Shown: positions 2,003 to 2,456 of the stretch, in pieces
Layout: every line of letters begins with the position of its first letter
How positions within the stretch are numbered: position 1 is the stretch's first letter
DNA from: an uncultured Bacillota bacterium
Lineage (GTDB): Bacteria; Bacillota; Clostridia; Lachnospirales; Lachnospiraceae
Assembly (NCBI GenBank): GCA_949291945.1
Contig: CASEXH010000033.1
Coordinates: 1-64,000, forward strand
Direction of reading: 5' to 3'
Length of the DNA: 64,000 nucleotides
Program-made: the position numbers and the translations under genes
The notes under the pieces: generated by a model
What the model was told of the DNA's origin: nothing
The model's database searches: none
What the model saw: only the letters and a program-made list of their open reading frames with translations

Positions 2003-2034
2003 ATTAAAAGCAGCAGCTTCAATTTTTACAAAAA

Positions 2035-2085
2035 AGAAACCAGAATCAATGAGGGGGGAAGGTTGATTCTGGTTTCTCTTTTTTT
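2035..2085 (+). terminator. Intrinsic terminator / hairpin H1-A
   Basis: Fifteen-bp perfect stem (AGAAACCAGAATCAA and its complement) around the loop TGAGGGGGGAAGG, followed by CTTTTTTT. It ends the transcript of the alarmone synthetase. The same loop core TGAGGGGG recurs in the hairpin at 2309-2346, where the stem sequence differs. Confidence 0.85.
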
Positions 2086-2198
2086 AATATTGTAAAATAT
2101 TAAAAAGAAGGAGAGCCGGTTAAAATTAATACCGGCATATGAAAAAGAAAAAGATTTTTGAAAAAGTCTTATCGGCTTTTACAAGTAATAATATAGCG
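2035..2198 (+). repeat. Duplicated structured element, copy A
   Basis: Copy A consists of hairpin H1 (2035-2077), the purine block AAAAAGAAGGAG (2102-2113), a short hairpin H2 with stem GCCGGT/ACCGGC (2115-2136), and a conserved tail starting ATATGAAAAAG and running to TAATATA near 2198. Copy B at 2309-2456 has the same order. The tails are nearly identical, whereas both hairpin stems differ in sequence but still pair. This lies in a 545-base stretch (2003-2547) with no recognisable protein gene. Confidence 0.7.
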
Positions 2199-2231
2199 GG
2201 AAAATGTGATGATTCTGTGATGAAAAAATAA
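2139..2231 (+). CDS. Possible 30-aa peptide inside copy A
   Basis: An ATG 26 bases after AGAAGGAG opens a frame for 30 residues beginning MKKKKIFEKVLSAFTSNN. In copy B two single-base deletions in the A and T runs truncate the equivalent frame after six codons. The nucleotide tail is therefore conserved better than the peptide, which argues against a selected protein. Listed because it is the only small frame with a nearby purine-rich block. Confidence 0.2.
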   Translation: MKKKKIFEKVLSAFTSNNIAGKCDDSVMKK

Positions 2232-2308
2232 AAGAAATGTGAAATTGCTAAAAATCACAAATTATTGACCGAAAATGTATTAGACCAGAAGAAAATCTGA
2301 TAACGCAA

Positions 2309-2456
2309 CAAGAGCAGGAATCTGAGGGGGCTGATTCCTGCTCTTGTCTTATAATCATAAAAAAGAAGGAGTAACTGACATTTCCTATGTCAGTATATGA
2401 AAAGAAAAAGATTTTGAAAAAGTCTTATTGGCTTTTACAAGTATTAATATACAGCG
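2309..2456 (+). repeat. Duplicated structured element, copy B
   Basis: Hairpin H1-B has a 14-bp stem CAAGAGCAGGAATC/GATTCCTGCTCTTG and loop TGAGGGGGCT. It is followed by AAAAAGAAGGAG (2360-2371), hairpin H2-B with stem ACTGACAT/ATGTCAGT (2374-2394), and the conserved tail (2395-2456). The stems differ from copy A while pairing is kept. H1-B is followed by only a weak T tract (TCTTAT). Confidence 0.7.

Follow-up and report, generated by a model that had tools for sequence, protein, structure and literature searches.

A predicted multicopy small RNA family of Blautia with anti-start-codon and anti-Shine-Dalgarno segments

In enterobacteria, envelope stress reduces the synthesis of envelope proteins through the sigma-E and Cpx sRNAs (MicA, RybB, CpxQ), and HtrA belongs to the CiaRH regulon. 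The csRNAs of Streptococcus, of which each genome contains several, are preceded by the CiaR box (NTTAAG-N5-TTTAAG), i.e., hexamer repeats 5 bp apart, and carry unpaired anti-Shine-Dalgarno (anti-SD) and anti-AUG (CAU) sequences and a terminator (PMC3091779). LhrC1-5 of Listeria, also multicopy, are induced by envelope stress via a response regulator (LisRK) and bind Shine-Dalgarno sequences (SDs) through CU-rich sites in a single-stranded region and in the terminator loop, the UCCC sites being redundant (PMC4132741). The RNA proposed here for Blautia resembles the csRNAs in being multicopy, in its direct hexamer repeats with 5-bp spacing, in the combination of anti-SD and anti-AUG, and in its terminator. 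It differs from them in its bacterial family, in its box (WTCACA-N5, in up to four repeats, instead of NTTAAG-N5-TTTAAG), in an anti-start segment that reaches the Lys codons, and in a covarying hairpin between anti-AUG and anti-SD. With LhrC it shares the multiple copies, the CU-rich SD-binding sites and, presumably, induction by envelope stress, but the Blautia sRNA is predicted to form a bipartite duplex with SD and start codon. A C-rich motif directed at the SD is also found in sRNAs of the RsaE and FsrA type of Firmicutes, from which it differs in structure and in that the C-rich loop is limited to one tandem locus; in comparison with MicA, RybB, and CpxQ, sequence, regulators, and targets all differ. 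No homology to csRNAs or LhrC was found in this analysis.

The window (the whole stretch of 64,000 nucleotides analyzed) is part of a Blautia genome of 55 contigs and 3.66 Mb. Two units, copies A and B, are spaced ∼256 bp apart and do not abut. In window coordinates, both come after a cluster of rRNA and tRNA genes and a small gene resembling RelA/SpoT, and before a minus-strand DUF6062 gene; the same tandem locus is also present in public Blautia records. The small protein encoded at 1062-1676, adjoining the tRNA cluster, resembles RelA/SpoT-type synthetases by eye; an open frame of 108 aa (1676-2002) separates it from the sRNAs, and this flank is variable, with other genes occupying it in related species. 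A sequence-only reading had placed the two units at 2035-2198 and 2309-2456 with the same order of elements, which was borne out when the sequence was reexamined. The arms of the first hairpin (H1) of copy A (∼2036-2049/2063-2076) lie within a longer inverted repeat (2020-2092, 87% paired); those of copy B (2308-2322/2333-2347) are 100% paired. On the plus strand, AAAAAGAAGGAG occurs at 2102-2113 and 2360-2371, followed by the second hairpin (H2), the stem of which is GCCGGT/ACCGGC in copy A (2115-2136) and ACTGACAT/ATGTCAGT in copy B (2374-2394). After H2, a 101-nt repeat (2144-2244/2400-2500) is 75% identical between the copies. The conserved tail described previously exists, but its ends had been set ∼45 nt short, and it is a promoter on the minus strand, consisting of a −10 box and direct repeats.

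The folding energy of the hairpins was far lower than that of dinucleotide shuffles (z of −4.6, −4.3, −5.3, and −2.7). Among 76 H2 sequences, 98.9% of the cells were paired and 105 double changes were counted; shuffles gave 22 on average, and sliding gave 1-5. This alignment was fitted to the covariance model and thus leans towards structure; the 19-sequence MAFFT alignment on which the model is based gave the same picture (98.2% paired, 13 double changes). The earlier view that the stems differ yet stay paired, and that an RNA structure is under selection, is supported by these data. When the non-Watson-Crick cells of H2 were sorted by strand, 19 read as G-U on the minus strand and a single one (A-C there) as G-U on the plus strand, for which reason the RNA was assigned to the minus strand. 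The direction of the promoter and the U-run after H1 agree with this assignment and reverse the strand read before. Judged from its sequence, each unit very probably encodes a minus-strand sRNA. A peptide gene or leader on the plus strand, with a layout of RBS, hairpin, and start, is scarcely credible and was rejected: unit A does contain a good SD-like AAGAAGGAG and ATG AAA AAG AAA, but SD and ATG are ∼25 nt apart, the frame is broken in unit B (as already recognized), the G-U pairs favor the minus strand, and −10 box and repeats face the opposite way. The block "AAAAAGAAGGAG ... ATATGAAAAAG", despite its likeness to an RBS followed by the start of a peptide, is complementary to an anti-RBS.

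Read on the minus strand, the order is four 11-bp repeats, −10 box, 5′ hairpin, CUUUUUCUUUUUCAUA, H2, CUCCUUC, H1 or a different terminator further downstream, and usually a U-run, where CUUUUUCUUUUUCAUA is the complement of AUG plus Lys codons and CUCCUUC an anti-SD. The promoter of copy A (2190-2243, minus strand) was delimited by the consensus of 64 promoters and a pattern match at 2190-2221 (0 mismatches); it is composed of TTCACA (2243-2238), TTTATT (2232-2227), ATCACA (2221-2216), and ATCACA (2210-2205), and of the −10 box TATATT (2195-2190). From the position of the latter, the transcript is predicted to start at ∼2183. The core of this sRNA (2102-2183, minus strand; covariance model R2 match at 2103-2243, 139 bits) comprises a weak 5′ hairpin, the anti-AUG/anti-Lys-codon segment CUUUUUCUUUUUCAUAU (2137-2153; recognized by motif conservation and by cofolding with a lipoprotein mRNA), H2 (2115-2136; covarying according to pairing counts and G-U versus A-C), and the anti-SD CUCCUUCUUUUU (2102-2113; recognized by CUCCY conservation). 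A UUUUUCAU-like motif is present in 66 of 67 units and CUCCY in 64 of 67. H1 of copy A (2030-2080, minus strand) is terminator-like, with the C-rich loop CCUUCCCCCCUCA and T-runs on both strands. Copy B, also on the minus strand, has a promoter with weaker repeats (2446-2499; −10 box TATATT at 2451-2446), a predicted transcript start near 2440, and a core at 2359-2440 (anti-AUG 2395-2410, H2 2374-2394, anti-SD 2359-2371; R2 match at 2361-2499, 89 bits). Its H1 (2308-2347) is a perfect 15-bp hairpin with the loop AGCCCCCUCA and lacks a clear T-run in the host genome, T-runs being present in related species; the weakness of promoter repeats and T-run in this copy counts against the model favored here. 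The 5′ hairpin, which is variable in sequence, is weak in both window copies; of 62 units compared with mononucleotide shuffles, 58% fold here at p ≤ 0.05. In a second sRNA subclass (loci L029, L030, L031, and L131), the 5′ hairpin is strong and AT-rich (UAAAAAUAAU/AUUAUUUUUA), and the C-rich loop is missing from the terminators.

Within the tandem locus, the loop CCCCC(C)UC was kept in 23/23 distinct H1 sequences despite changes in the stems, and in most of them a minus-strand U-run follows H1. Such conservation would be expected if the sRNA acted mainly via the C-rich H1 loop, or on few specific mRNAs instead of the exported-protein mRNAs as a class, and RsaE, FsrA, and LhrC all contact SDs through UCCC motifs (PMC4132741). 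The dispersed copies, however, lack this loop and retain the anti-AUG/anti-SD core, which makes the core the common denominator and this alternative unlikely. For some dispersed copies, no hairpin plus U-run was found within 130 nt downstream. Because several are without a clear downstream terminator, their 3′ end is uncertain; H2 and its U-rich tail may terminate the transcript in these cases. That the H1s are ordinary terminators, a possibility raised earlier, is correct insofar as H1 of copy A resembles a bidirectional terminator, but leaves H2 and the rest unaccounted for. Combined with a dispersed repeat devoid of regulatory function, which would fit the dispersal of the copies, ordinary terminators are a very improbable explanation, as, across 94 genomes of the family, the stem letters vary around a constant promoter, anti-AUG, and anti-SD.

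The search of related genomes with a covariance model, proposed together with the initial description, yielded more copies with covarying stems. Each of the 20/20 Blautia genomes examined contained between one and six; the four in the host genome are on contigs C33 (twice), C10, and C21, so that the tandem pair represents two of the four. Positive genomes numbered 94/299 in the family sample, 5/196 in the order sample (all five in the same family), and 1/299 in the phylum sample (the host genome alone), all of which are lower bounds owing to the stricter filters used. In G404 and G498, both from a single different genus within this family, nine sRNA copies per genome are present. The Rfam library includes a model for LhrC. 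At the gathering threshold, a scan of the window with Rfam 15 returned tRNA and rRNA only, a permissive scan only chance-level matches, and LhrC was without a match at E up to 10, which is in line with the earlier statement that no named RNA family has this layout. Nothing relevant turned up when the literature was searched for sRNAs or start-site maps of Blautia. We file these RNAs as a new multicopy family of a known kind, apparently csRNA-like in action.

The consensus of the 64 aligned promoters is TTCATA, TTCACA, AACACA, and ATCACA in 11-bp repeats, then nine bases and TATANT, which can be generalized as four WTCACA-N5 in tandem. Four bases of the −10 box, TAT and the last T, never vary, and conservation of the CA cores is 86-98% in repeats 1, 3, and 4. 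A simple scan for sigma-70 promoters and terminators gave nothing above chance, which is expected because the promoter is of the activator type without a −35 box and the loops exceed the limit of the scan. In the host genome, box plus −10 pattern (≤3 mismatches) matched 52 times, versus 19 times for the reversed pattern; many single box matches are therefore due to chance, and conservation across genomes was used to separate the real ones. Among the genes preceded by a box were those for two HtrA-like proteases and FtsH, for an FKBP-type PPIase and an ABC ATPase, as well as the third sRNA copy. The HtrA2 box recurred in 7/7 further genomes searched (gene confirmed in three), those of HtrA1 in three, ABC in two, and FtsH in one. 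On the strength of HtrA, FtsH, and the PPIase, and by analogy with CiaRH, CssRS, and Cpx, we lean towards envelope stress as the theme of the regulon.

In every readable genome (19/19), TTCACA-N5-NACAAA followed by TATANT also stands before the gene of an OmpR-type response regulator, an arrangement that looks like autoregulation. This regulator (G000:C1:51855-52523, locus L227), the box of which is conserved genus-wide, belongs to an uncharacterized two-component system; in several species its gene lies directly 3′ of the apparent end of ssrA (tmRNA). A second two-component system (P0001, P0002) adjoins HtrA1 in four genomes. At locus L150 (3358-5480 and 8075-9496), an operon of MutS2, response regulator, and histidine kinase diverges from an HtrA-like gene, and the two have stayed linked in at least four species. 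Both response regulators are generic OmpR/PhoB members that score below all equivalog cut-offs, and the two systems are candidate regulators of the sRNAs. PhoP was discarded as regulator, the host's pstSCAB-phoU-phoPR promoter having TTTACA-type boxes, not WTCACA. Activation of the sRNAs by an OmpR-type regulator via the WTCACA repeats is likely.

The sRNA is complementary to GGAG...AUGAAAAAGAAA. GGAG-N4-12-AUGAAAAAGAAA (pattern GGAGN{4,12}ATGAAAAAGAAA) occurred 10 times in the host genome and not at all in the reversed control. One match was not in a gene; each of the nine real genes (9/9) codes for an exported or membrane protein, and five of the products are, by eye, solute-binding lipoproteins. 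Apart from this genome-wide pattern search, target statistics were derived from a 460-kb sample of stretches with 383 called genes, 74 of which were classified as signal-peptide-like by a crude predictor. Predicted binding was stronger for the latter than for the other genes with all four copies (Mann-Whitney p between 0.0002 and 0.007), but not with reversed sRNAs as control (p between 0.14 and 0.61). The preference is modest and to some extent inherent, as an MKKK start is by nature frequent in signal peptides, and it thus indicates a match of design rather than repression. Cofolding with the lipoprotein gene of locus L177 resulted in a bipartite duplex with intact H2 (−35.3 kcal/mol), the rank of this gene varying with the sRNA copy from the 0.8 to the 43rd percentile.

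Under the model we favor, the two tandem genes would give rise to trans-acting sRNAs from the minus strand, activated by an OmpR/PhoB-type response regulator binding to the 11-bp WTCACA repeats together with two HtrA-like proteases, FtsH, a membrane PPIase, and an ABC-transporter operon. Target mRNAs would have a strong SD and start with AUG AAA AAG AAA, the chief ones encoding solute-binding lipoproteins that begin with MKKK. The U-rich segment would pair with the start codon and Lys codons and CUCCUU with the SD, with H2 forming a third helix across the RBS spacer; ribosomes would be kept from binding, and less exported protein made under envelope or secretion stress. The sequences themselves establish the covarying structure and its strand, the promoter repeats, the number of copies, the sharing of the box, and the complementarity; we infer transcription, regulator, stress signal, targets, and repression alike. 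A block of translation initiation by such bipartite pairing is fairly probable, and the model of an envelope-stress sRNA repressing exported-protein mRNAs is, as a whole, on balance probable. Action on the entire class of these mRNAs, through their shared "Shine-Dalgarno plus AUG-Lys-Lys-Lys" signature, is a more tentative and rather doubtful extension.

Lachnospiraceae, including Blautia, are major gut bacteria, the regulatory RNAs of which appear almost unstudied, and for this family the boundaries are defined, a regulator can be proposed, and the target rule lends itself to testing. Should the class-wide rule hold, envelope stress would lower the entire export load and not that of chosen genes, and an sRNA can target the export class through the common sequence at the start of signal peptides.
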